The notes beneath the pieces are model-generated. The model was given only the letters and a program-made list of their open reading frames with translations, made no database searches and was not told the origin of the DNA. Below are positions 11,434-27,455 of a stretch of 33,880 bases of DNA, in pieces (position 1 is the stretch's first letter; each line of letters opens with the position of its first letter). This DNA is from a virus. The stretch is from the IMG/VR virus record IMGVR_UViG_3300048804_000058, positions 1 through 33,880 of that record. The stretch is one strand, 5' to 3'. Position numbers and translations under genes: made by a program.

Positions 11434-12813
11434 ATGAGACTTAAATATTATATAACCGAAGCAGATGAAAAAATTAAAGTCGTAATTCTCACAACAAAGA
11501 ATGATGAAAAAAAAGAAGATTCTGGTGGGGATAAACTCTTTGACACATCAAAGAAAATCAAAGAGTATTGTGAAAAGAAAAAAATAAGTCATTATGTATT
11601 ATACGCCGAGAATGCATTCATCAATCGAAATAAAGATGATATGACCGTCCATAATTCCGATGACAAACAAGGATTTAAAATACACAAAAACAATACAGCA
11701 GTTGTTGTTCGAGGAACTTTTGATACACTATCAACTGGCCTTGACCTTCTTTCCAGAATGGAAAATGCTGGTATATTCTGTGTAAATGGAAGAGAAGCAA
11801 TAGAAATATGCTCCGATAAATATCGAACAATTCTCGCCATGGAAGACAATGAGATAAAATGCCCCAAGACAGCAACGGTAGTGAATAAAGATGGGCTTGG
11901 GGGCGCATTTAAACGAATTGGTGGAAAATTCCCATGTATCTTAAAAACCATAACAGGATCAAAGGGTATTGGAGTGTTTTTTGCGGATTCGTGGATTGGC
12001 ATGAATTCTACTCTTCAGGCAATGTGGAAAGTAGATGAAGAAGTACAGATATTGATGCAGGAATACATTGAAGCAGATTTTGATATGAGAATCCATGTTC
12101 TGGGTGGTGAAGTCATAGGAGCAATGAAAAGATTCAAAATAAAAAATGATTTCAGATCAAATTATTCTCTTGGTGGCAAAATTGAAGAGATGAAAGTAAA
12201 TGACAAATTGAGAGAATTTGCTATCAATGCAGCGAAGGCAATAGGGGGAATATGGGTCGGTGTAGATGTAATGGATGCAGGAAAAGAGGATTATCGCGTT
12301 ATCGAAGTCAACTCTTCACCAGGGACAGAAGGAATAGAAAAAGCCACCCATAAAAATATAGTTGGAACAGTAGTAAAGTTCATAACCGATAAGAACAATT
12401 GGGCTGATATAAAAAAGACAGAATGTGGTTTCGTTGAAAAAATAAAAATAGAAAAAACAGATAAAGAATTTGATGCCAAAATGGATACGGGCAATAGTTC
12501 TTACTCTGTCATTCATGCCAACAAATGGAAAATAAATGGCGATAATATAAGATGGGAAATGTATGGAAAGAAATATACCGATGAATTAGACTCCATGAAA
12601 GAAGTAGAAGCAGGAGCGACAGAACATAAGAGAGAAGAAAGACCCGTCATAAAGTTGAATGTAATTTTCAACGGGGAAACATACAAAAACGTTAGATTCT
12701 GTCTATCAGATCGAGAAGATTTTTCAACTCCTGTATTGATGAATCGCCAATTTATTAGACGGGCTGGATTAATAGTCAACCCATCATTGAAATATGCTCT
12801 ATCGGAAAAATAA
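11434..12813 (+). CDS. Tagged RimK-like ATP-grasp ligase fused to RimB-like protease domain
   Basis: 459 aa. Tag MRLKYYITEA (I-T-E). Residues ~15-320 form a RimK-type ATP-grasp glutamate ligase: CPKTATVV, the ATP-binding lysine in FPCILKTITGSKGIGV, the LMQEYIEAD strand, DMRIHVLGGEVIGAMKR, and the metal-binding end VIEVNSSPG. RimK adds glutamates to the C-terminus of ribosomal protein S6. Residues ~335-459 match the retropepsin-like RimB / RimK-associated zinc-protease family, with AKMDTG at 349-353 and LSDRED plus VLMNRQF near the end. A ligase and its partner hydrolase in one chain, with a head-targeting tag, suggest an injected ribosome-modifying enzyme; that target is inferred. Confidence 0.85.
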   Translation: MRLKYYITEADEKIKVVILTTKNDEKKEDSGGDKLFDTSKKIKEYCEKKKISHYVLYAENAFINRNKDDMTVHNSDDKQGFKIHKNNTAVVVRGTFDTLSTGLDLLSRMENAGIFCVNGREAIEICSDKYRTILAMEDNEIKCPKTATVVNKDGLGGAFKRIGGKFPCILKTITGSKGIGVFFADSWIGMNSTLQAMWKVDEEVQILMQEYIEADFDMRIHVLGGEVIGAMKRFKIKNDFRSNYSLGGKIEEMKVNDKLREFAINAAKAIGGIWVGVDVMDAGKEDYRVIEVNSSPGTEGIEKATHKNIVGTVVKFITDKNNWADIKKTECGFVEKIKIEKTDKEFDAKMDTGNSSYSVIHANKWKINGDNIRWEMYGKKYTDELDSMKEVEAGATEHKREERPVIKLNVIFNGETYKNVRFCLSDREDFSTPVLMNRQFIRRAGLIVNPSLKYALSEK

Positions 12814-18594: not shown

Positions 18595-18684
18595 TGGCGG
18601 AGAGAATGGGATTTGAACCCATGGGAGCATGGTGACTCCACCTGCTTTCCAGACAGGCACCTTAAACCACTCGGCCATCTCTCC
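18595..18684 (-). tRNA. tRNA-Ser(GGA)
   Basis: Acceptor GGAGAGA/TCTCTCC, discriminator G, CCA encoded. Loop CTGGAAA, anticodon GGA, with the long variable arm typical of serine tRNAs. The stop of 18662-18901 lies inside its D loop. Confidence 0.9.
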
Positions 18685-18908: not shown

Positions 18909-18996
18909 TGGAGGAAGGGACAGGATTCGAACCTGCGGGGCTTTTACACCCAAAAGTTTAGCAAACTTTCATCATAAACCACTCGATCACCCTTCC
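18909..18996 (-). tRNA. tRNA-Ser(GCT)
   Basis: Acceptor GGAAGGG/CCCTTCC, discriminator T, CCA encoded. Stem AAAGT/ACTTT, loop TTGCTAA, anticodon GCT, long variable arm. Discriminator T is unusual for serine, where G is usual. Confidence 0.9.
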
Positions 18997-20957: not shown

Positions 20958-21045
20958 TGGAGGAAGGAGTGGGATTCGAACCCACGGAACTTTTACATCC
21001 ATTAGTTTTCAAGACTAACACCTTAAGCCACTCGGCCACCCTTCC
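20958..21045 (-). tRNA. tRNA-Ser(TGA)
   Basis: Acceptor GGAAGGG/TCCTTCC, discriminator T, CCA encoded. Stem TTAGT/ACTAA, loop CTTGAAA, anticodon TGA, long variable arm. Confidence 0.9.
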
Positions 21046-21866: not shown

Positions 21867-21941
21867 TGGAGCCACCGAAGAGATTCGAACTCTCATGAAT
21901 TGGGTACGGACCAATCATTCTTCCTGTTGAATTACAGTGGC
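21867..21941 (-). tRNA. tRNA-Thr(CGT), C33
   Basis: Acceptor GCCACTG/CGGTGGC, discriminator T, CCA encoded. Stem ATTGG/CCAAT, loop TCCGTAC: anticodon CGT with C33. Its first 27 nt are also the end of the GGQ protein gene. Confidence 0.8.
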
Positions 21942-22295
21942 GTGTGTCCATTTTCCTTCTTGTTTTGTTTCTACTTTTATATATTTATCGTTTACCCATT
22001 TTTCAACTTCTGCAAGTAATTCTTTTTCTGTTTTATGAGTTGATAAATATTTTGATGCTTCCAATTTCAGCCACTTTTTGAATTTATCGGTATCAACCAA
22101 TCGTCTGAATGCATTCTTTCTATTTTGAAGTTGACTTCTCTCTTCTCTGCTTTCTCCTATTGCACCAGATTTTTCGTGAATTATTCTTACTCCACTTTCC
22201 ACCTTATTCTGGTTCTGCCCACCTTTGCCACCAGATCGAAAAGTTTGAATTTCAAAATCTTTTTTGGTTACAGAGAATAACAATTCTTTTTTCAT
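21915..22295 (-). CDS. GGQ-domain release-factor-like protein
   Basis: 126 aa from MKKELLFSVTKKDFEIQ; a longer open frame runs back through tRNA-Leu(CAA) and is rejected. Residues 19-40 (FRSGGKGGQNQNKVESGVRI) carry the GGQ peptidyl-tRNA hydrolysis motif (25-27) with the flanks of the RF-1 domain family, and GESREERSQLQNRKNAFRRL follows as in class I release factors. No codon-recognition domain is present, so it resembles ArfB-type rescue factors or RF-H-like proteins. The last residues and TGA lie in tRNA-Thr(CGT). The start follows the CCA of tRNA-Leu with no clear ribosome binding site. Confidence 0.85.
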   Translation of the reverse strand: MKKELLFSVTKKDFEIQTFRSGGKGGQNQNKVESGVRIIHEKSGAIGESREERSQLQNRKNAFRRLVDTDKFKKWLKLEASKYLSTHKTEKELLAEVEKWVNDKYIKVETKQEGKWTHATVIQQEE

Positions 22296-22303
22296 AATAT
22301 TTT

Positions 22304-22381
22304 TGGTGCGCCTGGGGGGATTCGAACCCCCAAAATCACGGGTTTGAGCCGTGCACCTATACCTGATTCGATCACAGGCGC
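22304..22381 (-). tRNA. tRNA with Leu(CAA) anticodon, short variable arm
   Basis: Acceptor GCGCCTG/CAGGCGC, discriminator A, CCA encoded. Stem CACGG/CCGTG, loop CTCAAAC, anticodon CAA. Variable region is only ATTTT, whereas bacterial leucine tRNAs have a long arm; the D stem is also short. Amino-acid identity is therefore uncertain. Confidence 0.8.
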
Positions 22382-22384
22382 ATA

Positions 22385-22585
22385 TTACCAACTATTCAAT
22401 TCAATTTCTGTGCGGTTGTTACATTTCGGGCATACGAAATTTACCTTAACCTCACCATGATTACCACATCTATCACAATCCTGGCTCATTCCTTGCCAGT
22501 GAAGATCATTCTTTTTTACTGCAACATTCTTGTTACAGTGCCCACAAAAAAATAAAAGATGTTTTAGTATACCTACATATCTCAT
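22385..22585 (-). CDS. Zinc-ribbon protein
   Basis: 66 aa from MRYVGILKHLLFF; AAGGAAAATGTT follows the CCA of tRNA-Leu(TAA) and sets the start. Three C-x2-C knuckles (CGHC, CDRC, CPKC) plus one further region could hold two zinc ions. Small multi-knuckle proteins of this kind are common in T4-like phages. Function unknown. Confidence 0.7.
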   Translation of the reverse strand: MRYVGILKHLLFFCGHCNKNVAVKKNDLHWQGMSQDCDRCGNHGEVKVNFVCPKCNNRTEIELNSW

Positions 22586-22597
22586 AACATTTTCCTT

Positions 22598-22674
22598 TGG
22601 TGCGAATGAAGGGATTCGAACCCTCACTTTACAGGGTTTAAGCCTGTTGACTCTACCAGTTGGCCCACATTCGC
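22598..22674 (-). tRNA. tRNA with Leu(TAA) anticodon, short variable arm
   Basis: Acceptor GCGAATG/CATTCGC, discriminator A, CCA encoded then AAAGGAA. Stem ACAGG/CCTGT, loop CTTAAAC, anticodon TAA. Variable region AAAGT (5 nt). The first 51 nt are also the end of the phosphatase reading frame. Confidence 0.8.
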
Positions 22675-23106
22675 ATTATCAACTTTCTTCAATGTAGAAT
22701 AAACCAGTTTATTGTATAACCTATAAGTAGCAAACCAAAATTTGATTTCCATTTTGTTTACTCTTACATTATATTTTTCTCCTATGAAAAATGCAACTCC
22801 TGCTGATCTTGAAATTCCTGCTGCGCAATGAACATATATTGTATTTACTCGATCATCCAGGTTGTGCAAAAAATGCACTATCTGCTTTGCATGATCCACA
22901 TTGAATATAGTATATTCAGTTACCAAATCAGGATGAGCATCAATATGCCTCTGATCTATATCGTGAAACCGCAATCTCAAGATTCTATTTCCCCAATCAG
23001 GCAAATCAACATCAGAGTTTTCGGAGATAGAAATCATAGCGGTGTCTTTTCTTACAACCGCCTTCTTCGCCATTTCCTCACCGAAGAAATATACTTGCTT
23101 GATCAT
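22624..23106 (-). CDS. Protein phosphatase, dual-specificity/PTP type
   Basis: 160 aa. The signature H93-C94-x5-R100-S (VHCAAGISRSAGVAFF) is the catalytic loop of Cys-based phosphatases, with an upstream IFNVDHAKQIVHFLH helix as in this family. No obvious general-acid loop can be pinned, though FHDIDQRHID is a candidate. Substrate may be phosphoprotein or RNA 5-prime phosphate. A second start (MAKKAV, after GGTGAGGAA) is possible. The last 17 residues (from DNANVGQ) are read through tRNA-Leu(TAA), so the natural end may once have been earlier. Driven by a consensus promoter at 23137-23165. Confidence 0.85.
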   Translation of the reverse strand: MIKQVYFFGEEMAKKAVVRKDTAMISISENSDVDLPDWGNRILRLRFHDIDQRHIDAHPDLVTEYTIFNVDHAKQIVHFLHNLDDRVNTIYVHCAAGISRSAGVAFFIGEKYNVRVNKMEIKFWFATYRLYNKLVYSTLKKVDNANVGQLVESTGLNPVK

Positions 23107-23125
23107 TTGATTCTCGTTTCCCTTA

Positions 23126-23183
23126 TTTCAGTCTTTATTATATCAAAAATCTGAAGACATGTCAAGAAAAATCTTTCATAATA
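23126..23183 (-). repeat. 58-bp promoter repeat, copy 1
   Basis: 56 of 58 bases match the copy at 28057-28114, including both promoter boxes, spacer ends and upstream A/T tract. Confidence 0.9.
23137..23165 (-). promoter_or_regulatory. Consensus sigma70 promoter (copy 1 of a duplicated promoter)
   Basis: Perfect TTGACA (23160-23165), 17-bp spacer, TATAAT (23137-23142). The surrounding 58 bp (23126-23183) recur with two mismatches at 28057-28114. An A/T-rich stretch before -35 may act as an UP element. Reads towards the phosphatase and on into the tRNA block. Confidence 0.9.
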
Positions 23184-23220
23184 ATGTCAACATCTTATAA
23201 CAAAAACCCCTTTTGGTTTA

Positions 23221-23295
23221 TGGTGGAGGAAGACGGATTCGAACCGCCCTCTCAACCTCTTCAGGGTCGCGCTAATCCTAATCAGCTATTCCTCC
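23221..23295 (-). tRNA. tRNA-Phe(GAA)
   Basis: Acceptor GGAGGAA/TTCCTCC, discriminator A, CCA encoded. Stem CGACC/GGTTG, loop CTGAAGA, anticodon GAA. Confidence 0.9.
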
Positions 23296-23304
23296 ACAAT
23301 TCCT

Positions 23305-23383
23305 TGGGGTGAGAGATGGGATTCGAACCCACGATATGCACGGGCCACAACCGTGCGCCTTCGACCGCTTGGCTACTCTCACC
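23305..23383 (-). tRNA. tRNA-His(GTG)
   Basis: Stem CACGG/CCGTG, loop TTGTGGC, anticodon GTG. The 8-bp acceptor GGTGAGAG/CTCTCACC includes the G-1:C73 pair needed by histidyl-tRNA synthetase; CCA encoded. Confidence 0.9.
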
Positions 23384-23388
23384 ATAAA

Positions 23389-23898
23389 CTATTTTTTTAT
23401 CAACTCGCAAATTTCATCCAATGATACTGGATAAAAATTCCAAACATCCACCCCTACATTGACTGCGTTTTGCACCATCTTGAATAAATCATGAATATGG
23501 GCGCATAAAAATATTTTTGTTCTATCCAGGCAACTTGCAGCAGGATCATGAACCAAAACAAAATCGCCTTTGAATGTATTTATTTCCAATGCTGTATGCA
23601 CAGTACGAAATCCCATATTTACATAGGTGAAAGGTTTGAGGGCATCGTGATTGCCCAAAATCAATATTTTGGTCCCATTCATTTTGCTGATATATCTTTC
23701 AATATCGTGGTCTCTTTTGCTGAGGGAAATATCACCAACAATATAAATGGTATCTTCCTTTTTTACCCGTTCATTATGCCTTCTGACAATCTCACGATTC
23801 ATTTCGTGTATATCTTTGAACGGCCGGTTACAGTAGTGGATTATTCCACCCCTTTCGTTCATATGATCAAAATGATAATCTGCTGAGAAATAATACAT
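23389..23898 (-). CDS. Calcineurin-like metallophosphoesterase
   Basis: 169 aa. The metal-binding motifs appear in order: D7-x-H9 (YFSADYHFDH), G55-D56, G-N-H-D (82-85), a later LVHDP, and A-H-I-H (133-136). Short phage enzymes of this layout hydrolyse phosphodiesters, often 2,3-cyclic phosphates or small molecules; the substrate cannot be read here. A tRNA-block location makes RNA-end processing an attractive but unproven idea. 11 nt upstream is the CCA of tRNA-Arg(ACG). Confidence 0.9.
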   Translation of the reverse strand: MYYFSADYHFDHMNERGGIIHYCNRPFKDIHEMNREIVRRHNERVKKEDTIYIVGDISLSKRDHDIERYISKMNGTKILILGNHDALKPFTYVNMGFRTVHTALEINTFKGDFVLVHDPAASCLDRTKIFLCAHIHDLFKMVQNAVNVGVDVWNFYPVSLDEICELIKK

Positions 23899-23909
23899 AT
23901 AAACCTTTC

Positions 23910-23986
23910 TGGCACCCCTGGCAGGATTCGAACCCGCAATGCTTCGTCCGTAGCGAAGTGTGATAATTCCGTTTCACTACAGGGGC
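23910..23986 (-). tRNA. tRNA-Arg(ACG)
   Basis: Acceptor GCCCCTG/CAGGGGT, discriminator G, CCA encoded. Stem CTTCG/CGAAG, loop CTACGGA, anticodon ACG. Overlaps the end of 23977-24159. Confidence 0.9.
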
Positions 23987-24159
23987 AATCTTTTCATTCC
24001 AAGATCATCCATAACCCAAAACCAAATTTCAGGTTCTTTATAGGCATATTCTGAAAAATATTCTTCTGGCTGTCTACCATAAATATTTACAAACATTTCT
24101 CTTTTATTTTGCCTATCTATTATGGTTATGCAATTTTCCCTGGATTTTATCCTTTTCAT
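23977..24159 (-). CDS. Small hypothetical protein
   Basis: 60 aa, starting MKRIKSRENCITIIDRQNK, then aromatic-rich YFSEYAYKEPEIWFWVMD. It is coupled to 24156-24626 by an ATGA overlap and its TAG is inside tRNA-Arg(ACG). No family recognised. Confidence 0.6.
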   Translation of the reverse strand: MKRIKSRENCITIIDRQNKREMFVNIYGRQPEEYFSEYAYKEPEIWFWVMDDLGMKRLPL

Positions 24160-24626
24160 TTTATAATCAAATCATCTTCAACAACATATCGTGGTGAAAG
24201 AGGATCGGTTTCTTCTTCTTTCTTTTTCTTATCGTCTTCTTCTTTCTCTTCCGAAGGATTATCAGGACTATCACCTTCTGCTGGCGTCATCCAATTATTA
24301 TCCGCTCCTTCCTGTGTTTCTGGTATCTCTTCTTCCTCTTCTTCTGTTTCTACAGTCTCACCATCTGCATCTATATCTTTCCCTTCTTTTCCTGCATTGT
24401 TTGCTTCTTCCAGACAAGCATGACACGGTTTTATTGCGATACCGCCATTTTCGCTCTCATCTACTTCCAAATCCGCATTGCATTTATCGCAATAATACAT
24501 CTTCTCTGTAGTGCATTCGGTGCATAAGTCAACCCAAATACACATATCACCCCCATTATCGGGTTTCATTTCAGCATCCAATGATGTTCCGCATTTATTA
24601 CAATACAACTCAAATTCCAAAGACAT
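24156..24626 (-). CDS. Double zinc-finger protein with acidic tail
   Basis: 156 aa. Two similar C4 units, YCNKCGTSLDAEM ... CTEC (residues 8-40) and YYCDKCNADLEVDE ... CHACLEEANNAG (44-80), match the single unit at 17777-17968. The remaining ~75 residues are strongly acidic (EEEEEEIPETQEGADNN, then EEKEEDDKKKKEEET). Acidic tails can mimic nucleic acid or bind basic proteins; that role is inferred. A TTTACA-N17-TATAAT promoter lies upstream. Confidence 0.7.
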   Translation of the reverse strand: MSLEFELYCNKCGTSLDAEMKPDNGGDMCIWVDLCTECTTEKMYYCDKCNADLEVDESENGGIAIKPCHACLEEANNAGKEGKDIDADGETVETEEEEEEIPETQEGADNNWMTPAEGDSPDNPSEEKEEDDKKKKEEETDPLSPRYVVEDDLIIK

Positions 24627-24661
24627 TTTGTATTCTCCTTTATATAGGATTTTCTATTTGT

Positions 24662-24690
24662 ATTATAACACAAATTGAACGAATTGTAAA
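24662..24690 (-). promoter_or_regulatory. Sigma70-type promoter
   Basis: TTTACA (24685-24690), 17-bp spacer, TATAAT (24662-24667), reading towards 24626. Confidence 0.75.
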
Positions 24691-24697
24691 TATAAAA

Positions 24698-24772
24698 TGG
24701 TGTCCCTGGAGGGAATCCAACCCTCATCAATTCTTTAGGGGAGAATTATCCTATGCGTTGAACGACAGGGGC
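24698..24772 (-). tRNA. tRNA-Arg(CCT), C33, degenerate
   Basis: Acceptor GCCCCTG/CAGGGAC with a C-A mismatch, discriminator A, CCA encoded. Stem ATTCT/AGAAT, loop CCCCTAA, anticodon CCT with C33. T loop TTGGATT deviates from TTCGAAT. May be decaying. Confidence 0.65.
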
Positions 24773-24779
24773 AAAAATA

Positions 24780-24855
24780 TGGTAGGGCCAGAAGGATTCG
24801 AACCTTCAAAAAAAGTTTAGAGGACTTTTGTGATAATCCATTTCACTATGGCCCC
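24780..24855 (-). tRNA. tRNA-Arg(TCT), C33
   Basis: Acceptor GGGGCCA/TGGCCCT, discriminator A, CCA encoded. Stem AAAGT/ACTTT, loop CCTCTAA, anticodon TCT with C33. Reads AGA/AGG codons. Confidence 0.85.
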
Positions 24856-24864
24856 AGAAATTTC

Positions 24865-24940
24865 TGGCTGAGAGGGGTGGGATCGAACCACCAACCTTTC
24901 GGGTCAAAGCCGAATGTCCTGCCAGTTGAACGACCTCTCA
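24865..24940 (-). tRNA. tRNA-Gln(TTG)
   Basis: Acceptor TGAGAGG/CCTCTCA, discriminator G, CCA encoded. Stem TTCGG/CCGAA, loop CTTTGAC, anticodon TTG. Confidence 0.9.
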
Positions 24941-24947
24941 ATAAATT

Positions 24948-25024
24948 TGGTAGCCATGGAGAGATTCGAACTCTCAAAAGACTGCTTCTAAGGCAGTTCC
25001 CTTTGCCAGTTAGGGTACACGGCC
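24948..25024 (-). tRNA. tRNA with Leu(TAG) anticodon, short variable arm
   Basis: Acceptor GGCCGTG/CATGGCT, discriminator A, CCA encoded. Stem ACTGC/GCAGT, loop CTTAGAA, anticodon TAG. Variable region CTTTT, short like the two other leucine-anticodon tRNAs here. Confidence 0.8.
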
Positions 25025-25667: not shown

Positions 25668-25674
25668 AAAGGTG

Positions 25675-25774
25675 TTTCCATCTTGGATAGAGTACCCTAC
25701 GGTGTTAAGCCTGTGTTCAGCTAGGCCCCGATACTATCTCTATTACTCGGTACTGACATACCGCAAGATGGAAA
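25675..25774 (-). ncRNA. Structured ~100-nt RNA closed by 11-bp stem
   Basis: Ends pair perfectly (TTTCCATCTTG with CAAGATGGAAA). Just inside, on the transcribed strand, is a CGGTA-TGTCAG-TACCG hairpin, followed by further short complementary pieces (GCCT/AGGC). It has no T arm, anticodon arm or reading frame and fills the space between tRNA-Ile(GAT) and tRNA-Lys(TTT). Comparable small stable RNAs occur in the T4 tRNA operon. Function unknown. Confidence 0.65.
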
Positions 25775-25777
25775 TTT

Positions 25778-25859: not shown

Positions 25860-25933
25860 TGGTAGCCCCAGTCGGATTTGAACCGGCGTTTCAAGATTGA
25901 AGGTCTTGCTACCTACCATTAGTAGATGGGGCC
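25860..25933 (-). tRNA. tRNA-Glu(TTC), C33
   Basis: Acceptor GGCCCCA/TGGGGCT, discriminator A, CCA encoded. Stem CAAGA/TCTTG, loop CCTTCAA, anticodon TTC with C33. Confidence 0.85.
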
Positions 25934-26801: not shown

Positions 26802-26885
26802 TGGTGAGGAAGAGAGGAATCGAACCTCTATGCTTTCGCAAGTGGGTTACGGCCACTGGGACTCACCACGCTGTCCGACTTCCCC
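26802..26885 (-). tRNA. tRNA-Tyr(GTA), C33
   Basis: Acceptor GGGGAAG/CTTCCTC, discriminator A, CCA encoded. Stem AGTGG/CCACT, loop CCGTAAC, anticodon GTA with C33. Long variable arm TGC-GAAA-GCA, as in bacterial tRNA-Tyr. Confidence 0.85.
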
Positions 26886-27240: not shown

Positions 27241-27384
27241 TTAGTAAGTGGCCACTTACCAACATCTATCCCAAATTTTCACATACGGGAATCGAACCCG
27301 TATTCCGCTTGTCTACTCTTAAATTTTTCGGGTATCCTGTTTGGTGGCAAATGCCTCCAACAGAATTGCTCCATATTTGTGTCT

Positions 27385-27455
27385 CTAAATTTGCTCGAAT
27401 CGAACGAGCATCACGGGTTGCAATGCCCGTATGTTACCGCTACACCACAATTTAG
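27385..27455 (-). ncRNA. tRNA-like unit inside the ncRNA region
   Basis: Acceptor CTAAATT/AATTTAG, T arm GCTCG-TTCGATT-CGAGC, D-arm-like GTGTAGCGGTAACATAC, and an ACGGG/CCCGT stem with an 8-nt loop CATTGCAA (TGC or GCA could be exposed). No CCA follows. Shape is tRNA-like, but an 8-nt loop and missing CCA argue against a normal tRNA. Confidence 0.5.

Follow-up and report, generated by a model that had tools for sequence, protein, structure and literature searches.

Three leucine tRNA genes of a virus record from IMG/VR (IMGVR_UViG_3300048804_000058, 33,880 bases, analysed whole and hereafter called the window) have a variable region of five nucleotides in place of a long variable arm, and are predicted to encode working leucine tRNAs of class I shape (probability about 0.87). 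The coordinates of the variable regions given below were derived by hand from the parsed tRNAs.

22304-22381, minus strand: class I tRNA-Leu(CAA), variable region ATTTT at 22332-22336, D-arm TGATCGAATCAGGTATAGGTG, A73
22598-22674, minus strand: class I tRNA-Leu(TAA), variable region AAAGT at 22626-22630, D-arm TGGGCCAACTGGTAGAGTCA, A73
24948-25024, minus strand: class I tRNA-Leu(TAG), variable region CTTTT at 24976-24980, D-arm TACCCTAACTGGCAAAGGGA, A73

ARAGORN finds 34 tRNA genes in the window, every one on the minus strand, and these three are the only leucine tRNAs among them. A longer record (G001, 155,948 bases), which encodes the window's T4/RB69-type polymerase and one neighbouring protein at 100% identity, has the same leucine genes and, examined in pieces, no further ones. 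All three genes look intact, because their acceptor and T stems are complete, their anticodon loops have 7 nucleotides, A73 is present, CCA is encoded, and the Rfam tRNA scores are high (55.8, 58.7 and 61.2 bits; gathering score 29). In tRNA-Leu(TAG), and in neither of the other two, positions 13 and 22 are able to pair as U-A. Class I tRNAs are by definition those with a variable loop of 4 or 5 nucleotides (PMC7609411), as is found in all three genes, none of which has the variable arm of at least 10 nucleotides that marks class II. The armless form in the window is due neither to chance nor to damage, because both relatives examined share it: the CAA, TAA and TAG genes of G003 and the TAG gene of G002, a fragment, all have a variable region of 5 nucleotides. 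The earlier note on this DNA, made from the letters alone, had described the three short variable regions, in agreement with the ARAGORN positions and the parsed sequences, and had stated correctly that the serine and tyrosine tRNAs keep their long arms. The latter, used here as comparators, are as follows.

18595-18684, minus strand: class II tRNA-Ser(GGA), variable arm of 18 nucleotides
18909-18996, minus strand: class II tRNA-Ser(GCT), variable arm of 16 nucleotides
20958-21045, minus strand: class II tRNA-Ser(TGA), variable arm of 16 nucleotides
26802-26885, minus strand: class II tRNA-Tyr(GTA), variable arm of 11 nucleotides

According to a 2023 review, leucyl-tRNA synthetase (LeuRS) of E. 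coli needs A73, the A15-U48 pair, G18G19, A20a and the D-loop/T-loop contacts, is independent of the anticodon and the variable arm, and remains active on tRNA-Leu deprived of both the anticodon arm and the variable arm, whereas serine identity depends on the variable arm (PMC9976931). The full set of A73, A15-U48, G18G19 and A20a is present in 3/3 leucine tRNAs of the window and in 0/31 of its other ARAGORN tRNAs (p = 1.7e-4). Among 1,910 distinct tRNAs that passed the stem filters (from 2,244 ARAGORN calls) it was found in 135 of 174 viral and 87 of 104 bacterial class I leucine tRNAs, the class I sample being partly picked by a pattern of the anticodon loop and T loop that leaves the identity positions free; the corresponding figures were 44/51 for viral class II leucine tRNAs and 16/1,395 for viral non-leucine tRNAs (non-leucine rows summed). 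We suppose that the host LeuRS would recognise the armless tRNAs at their acceptor end and corner and so charge them, the model being E. coli LeuRS acting on arm-deleted tRNA-Leu in vitro. The earlier note had proposed charging by another synthetase, which is not borne out, the LeuRS identity nucleotides being retained and the UUA, UUG and CUA codons aligning with leucine. As to its other proposal, that leucine recognition is relaxed, it holds insofar as the reviewed E. coli rules (PMC9976931) spare the arm; a special relaxation is not required, because these rules already dispense with it.

Decoding of the three codons was assessed in several ways. When T4 genes and five other phage polymerases served as yardsticks, leucine was the best fit for UUG (247 aligned pairs) and for UUA (120). 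Counted by site, with a duplicate polymerase piece removed, at least one homologue has leucine at 14 of 29 UUA, 27 of 66 UUG and 5 of 6 CUA sites. In the comparison with G003, leucine stands opposite UUA in 93/182, UUG in 129/266 and CUA in 23/45 cases, and opposite the ordinary leucine codons CUU, CUC and CUG in 109/191, 26/59 and 32/64; with G002 the values are 71/132 for UUA, 136/236 for UUG, 12/30 for CUA and 77/141 for CUU. In the alignments, the UUA, UUG and CUA codons of the phage genes fall on leucine positions and are interchanged with CUU, CUC and CUG. The genetic code looks standard at all three codons, clearly so for UUA and UUG and on fewer data for CUA.

Class I leucine tRNAs are, by whole-body scores, apparently a type of their own. 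When their own group was offered in the scoring, with the window phage excluded from it, 238 class I leucine tRNAs and the three of the window were assigned to it, while among 1,502 non-leucine tRNAs none entered this group (all columns) and 9 entered the class II leucine group. The idea that they arose from a single other isotype whose anticodon changed was dropped, as the whole-body scores give no single donor, and descent from class II tRNA-Leu by deletion of the arm alone is likewise unsupported by them.

The form is frequent in phages. The scans with the first leucine pattern, the tRNA-Asn pattern, the class II serine pattern and the bacterial species set are samples and not totals, and variable lengths were counted only for tRNAs with a parser score of at least 20. 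After exclusion of the window copies, 118 of the 122 hits of the first leucine pattern among the matches listed (120 stretches) are ARAGORN leucine tRNAs, by our own subtraction. Among the matches listed for the tRNA-Asn pattern (120 stretches) the variable lengths of leucine tRNAs peak at 5 nucleotides, with others at 10 or more, and regions of up to 7 nucleotides occur in 21/59 leucine, 1/48 serine and 2/37 tyrosine tRNAs. In 111 further stretches, from the matches listed for the class II serine pattern, short regions were found in 18/58 leucine, 0/125 serine and 1/20 tyrosine tRNAs, the serine count being biased by the selection and the leucine count unbiased. Pooled, the two viral samples give, among the matches listed, short regions in 39 of 117 leucine, 1 of 173 serine and 3 of 57 tyrosine tRNAs, including one short tRNA labelled as serine and three labelled as tyrosine (two of these with the anticodon ATA) that were kept in the counts. 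A pattern for class I serine tRNAs, run over the whole collection, matched 27 stretches, and ARAGORN calls a serine tRNA in just one of them. That the phage set is not simply minimal, as had been suggested from the window alone, is confirmed by the pooled leucine and serine counts.

Among isolated phages, leucine tRNAs with 5 nucleotides in the variable region are carried by T5_ev212 (TAA and TAG), Acibel004 (TAG and TAA), P-RSM6 (TAA) and Jay2Jay (both genes), while Myrna has one of 5, one of 6 and one of 14 nucleotides. The TAG gene of T5 (13 nucleotides) and the TAA gene of T4 (15 nucleotides) are of class II. In the E. coli phages T5 and T5_ev212 alike the TAG gene is flanked by tRNA-Ala and two tRNA-Ser genes; a homing endonuclease gene is inserted in the tRNA-Ala/TAG/tRNA-Ser region of T5.

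The earlier note had taken it for granted that bacterial leucine tRNAs have a long arm, a premise that turned out to be wrong for many Actinomycetota, where class I genes are chromosomal. With the first leucine pattern and one genome per species, at least 119 bacterial stretches were matched; 100 of those listed contain an ARAGORN tRNA-Leu, and 89 of these 100 loci carry just one or two tRNAs. A relaxed pattern, applied to evenly drawn genomes, matched 34/119 in the phylum of Streptomyces, 6/79 in the cyanobacterial phylum and 1/119 in the phylum of a Lachnospiraceae genome, the last being the seed genome itself; each of these counts includes the seed genome, selected for having a match. The patterns (CTYAAA loop, GTTCGANTC T arm) are blind to other loops, and a sole isoacceptor can be claimed firmly only for genomes whose tRNA set was read.

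In two Streptomyces genomes the sole CAA match is of class I and the TAA match, by pattern, of class II. In one Streptomyces genome (G005) the variable regions measure 5 nucleotides in CAA, 15 in TAA, 15 in CAG, 17 in GAG (twice) and 15 in TAG, values that come from 12 of its 68 matches, namely the CAA gene and 11 others of class II length (one of the 12 has no ARAGORN call). Six other Streptomyces genomes have one CAA gene each in a 2016 table (PMC4932002). The DNA flanking the Streptomyces class I gene aligns in 14/14 other loci compared; the gene is therefore a stable chromosomal one. In the complete chromosome of Planktophila versatilis the reading covered each of the 38 Rfam tRNA matches: its CAA and TAA leucine tRNAs are of class I, TAG (11 nucleotides) and GAG (15 nucleotides) are of class II, and the class I tRNAs are the only intact readers of UUA and UUG. 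Against E. coli proteins, Planktophila codons align with leucine at 18/41 UUA and 52/86 UUG pairs, and 61/61 codons fit the standard code. One LeuRS gene above the family cut-off was found in each of 12 genomes, Planktophila among them, in some as two pieces of one frame. Judging by gene content, the charging of class I tRNA-Leu in Planktophila must fall to a bacterial LeuRS.

In Planktophila, 49 bases from the 3' part of the class I tRNA-Leu(TAA) gene are repeated about 7.9 kb away from it (L443 and L448; G008:C1, near 128870 and 136775), which resembles the remnant of an element integrated at this tRNA gene. A second TAA pattern match, at L448, is this 49-base copy, and the ARAGORN call there, with a variable region of 15 nucleotides, was judged spurious. 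The tRNA-Leu(TAA) gene carries an intron in many cyanobacteria; the class I tRNA-Leu(TAA) of Synechococcus lacustris (L446, genome G013) is intron-free. As for Mycobacterium, the tRNA-Leu-CAA described for tRNA-dependent lysogeny (PMC10865867) was considered as a class I candidate, since this would have supplied genetic proof, but the idea did not hold. The tRNA-Leu of phage Gaia has 83 nucleotides, a class II length. Among 60 Mycobacterium genomes the class I CAA sequence occurs in a minority, and many have no pattern match at all.

Several observations weigh against the reading of the window genes as working leucine tRNAs. In the yardstick test the best fit for CUA was not leucine (20 pairs: asparagine 8, leucine 7), and the test itself is rough, calling just 50 of 61 codons as standard with one polymerase piece counted twice; the evidence for CUA comes from few sites and from the exchange with relatives (23/45 and 12/30). 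Whole-body scoring without a class I leucine group places only 17/174 viral and 4/104 bacterial class I tRNAs with class II leucine. Some part of the identity set is missing in 39/174 viral class I leucine tRNAs, and the set is the one described for E. coli LeuRS. The CUA pairs, the whole-body scores and the class I shape would all suit codon reassignment or ambiguity, that is, a system in which another synthetase charges class I bodies and UUA, UUG or CUA is given another amino acid during infection, in the manner of yeast mitochondrial tRNA-Thr(UAG). We consider this very improbable: the LeuRS identity set is retained, the anticodon loops have 7 nucleotides, the per-site counts favour leucine, and the three codons swap at leucine-like rates with CUU and CUC, codons that have no tRNA among those seen in the phage; none of the three tests (yardstick, per-site, exchange with relatives) gave support to reassignment. 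That the genes are decayed and merely resemble tRNA-Leu is barely credible, given the intact cloverleaf, the encoded CCA, the high Rfam scores and the same form in G002 and G003; no point in favour of decay was found for the three window tRNAs.

Many Actinomycetota have an ordinary chromosomal tRNA-Leu of this form, and class I therefore appears to be a second, functional structural type of leucine tRNA rather than a means of recoding. The strong contrast between leucine and serine across phages would arise because LeuRS needs no arm and serine identity does: loss of a dispensable arm could be tolerated in leucine tRNAs and would be barred in serine ones. The loss itself may be explained in phages by neutral shortening or by escape from nucleases that attack variable arms. 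That escape is the cause, the tRNAs being charged with leucine and the arm having been lost as anti-phage nucleases cut it, seems quite unlikely. Short regions in about one third of leucine tRNAs in the two viral samples, among the matches listed, would agree with it, and nucleases cutting variable arms are known for tRNA-Tyr (PMC13096335). However, tRNA-Tyr, the known target, retains its arm in 54/57 cases among the matches listed, no nuclease cutting the tRNA-Leu arm was found in the literature examined, and bacteria, in which such pressure need not apply, have the form on their chromosomes as well. Rather unlikely as a whole is also the wider picture in which class I tRNA-Leu would be a separate widespread type: many Actinomycetota would have no other reader of UUA and/or UUG, the form would have passed between bacteria and phages whose hosts differ greatly, and phages would favour it for lacking the arm attacked by nucleases (compare Septu and retron-Eco7, acting on tRNA-Tyr).

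Some other features of the window deserve mention. An Rfam tRNA match at 25863-25933 (minus strand, 53.3 bits), without an ARAGORN call, has the loop CCTTCAA, which reads by eye as anticodon TTC (glutamate) with C at position 33 in place of the usual U, and a tRNA-like gene at 27384-27455 (minus strand, Rfam 38.2 bits) has an ambiguous anticodon and no encoded CCA. The ends of the gap between tRNA-Lys(TTT) and tRNA-Ile(GAT), 25668-25777, appear complementary by eye; it has no Rfam match at the gathering score. Between tRNA-Thr(CGT) and tRNA-Leu(CAA) lies a gene for a small RF-1 domain protein (21915-22298, minus strand; Pfam PF00472, PHROG release factor family), possibly a ribosome-rescue factor. 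The protein encoded at 22624-23106 (minus strand), whose frame overlaps the end of tRNA-Leu(TAA), has a dual-specificity phosphatase match below threshold (30.5 bits, cut-off 33.5). A fused protein at 11434-12813 (plus strand) combines a RimK-like ATP-grasp domain with a putative zinc protease domain. The DNA polymerase match of a relative (L006, 10001-12988) spans 2,988 bases versus 1,998 in the window, resembling an inserted intron or intein.

The phage tRNAs offer a natural experiment on synthetase recognition, arm loss being frequent in leucine tRNAs and almost absent from serine ones, as biochemistry predicts. Ready test systems are available in the Streptomyces and Planktophila genes and in the relatives of T5. 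Where annotation relies on arm length, genuine leucine tRNAs will be dismissed as misassigned. The 2023 review describes leucine and serine tRNAs as long-armed everywhere except in animal mitochondria, a rule which, as worded there, is contradicted for leucine by phages and by some of the bacteria (PMC9976931). Another paper does mention several Sec, Ser, Tyr and Leu tRNAs with short variable arms (PMC2265525), and a short-loop tRNA-Leu(TAG) was mentioned in 2019 for an acquired tRNA cluster of Mycobacterium (PMC6582537); in the open-licence literature no paper was found that surveys class I tRNA-Leu across phages or bacteria, most subscription papers lying outside this scope.

The Mycobacterium gene is, by its description, a comparable case: it combines a leucine anticodon and a short variable loop and belongs to a tRNA cluster gained by horizontal transfer, though it is a single gene mentioned in one sentence. 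Animal mitochondrial tRNA-Leu also lacks the long arm, but it is organellar and charged by a mitochondrial LeuRS; for human mitochondrial tRNA-Leu(UUR) the review reduces identity essentially to A73 and A14 (PMC9976931). Yeast mitochondrial tRNA-Thr(UAG) likewise joins an anticodon of the leucine family to a body unlike standard tRNA-Leu, but is described as derived from tRNA-His, with an anticodon loop of 8 nucleotides and CUN read as threonine (PMC7609411), whereas the window tRNAs have 7-nucleotide loops and leucine codons; neither mark of the yeast type, the 8-nucleotide loop or a non-leucine residue at the codons, was found for them, for CUA on few sites. A human armless tRNA-Leu-CAA has been treated as a changed tRNA-Met (PMC8450103); it too has a leucine anticodon without a long arm, while the window tRNAs have no single donor isotype and possess the LeuRS set. 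The class II leucine tRNAs of E. coli, T4 and T5 share with the window tRNAs the anticodons, codons, A73, A15-U48, G18G19 and A20a, and differ in whole-body scores and in the long arm (13 nucleotides in T5, 15 in T4, as against 5 in the window). Within the tRNA order, the class II TAG gene of T5 and the class I TAG gene of T5_ev212 hold the same place.

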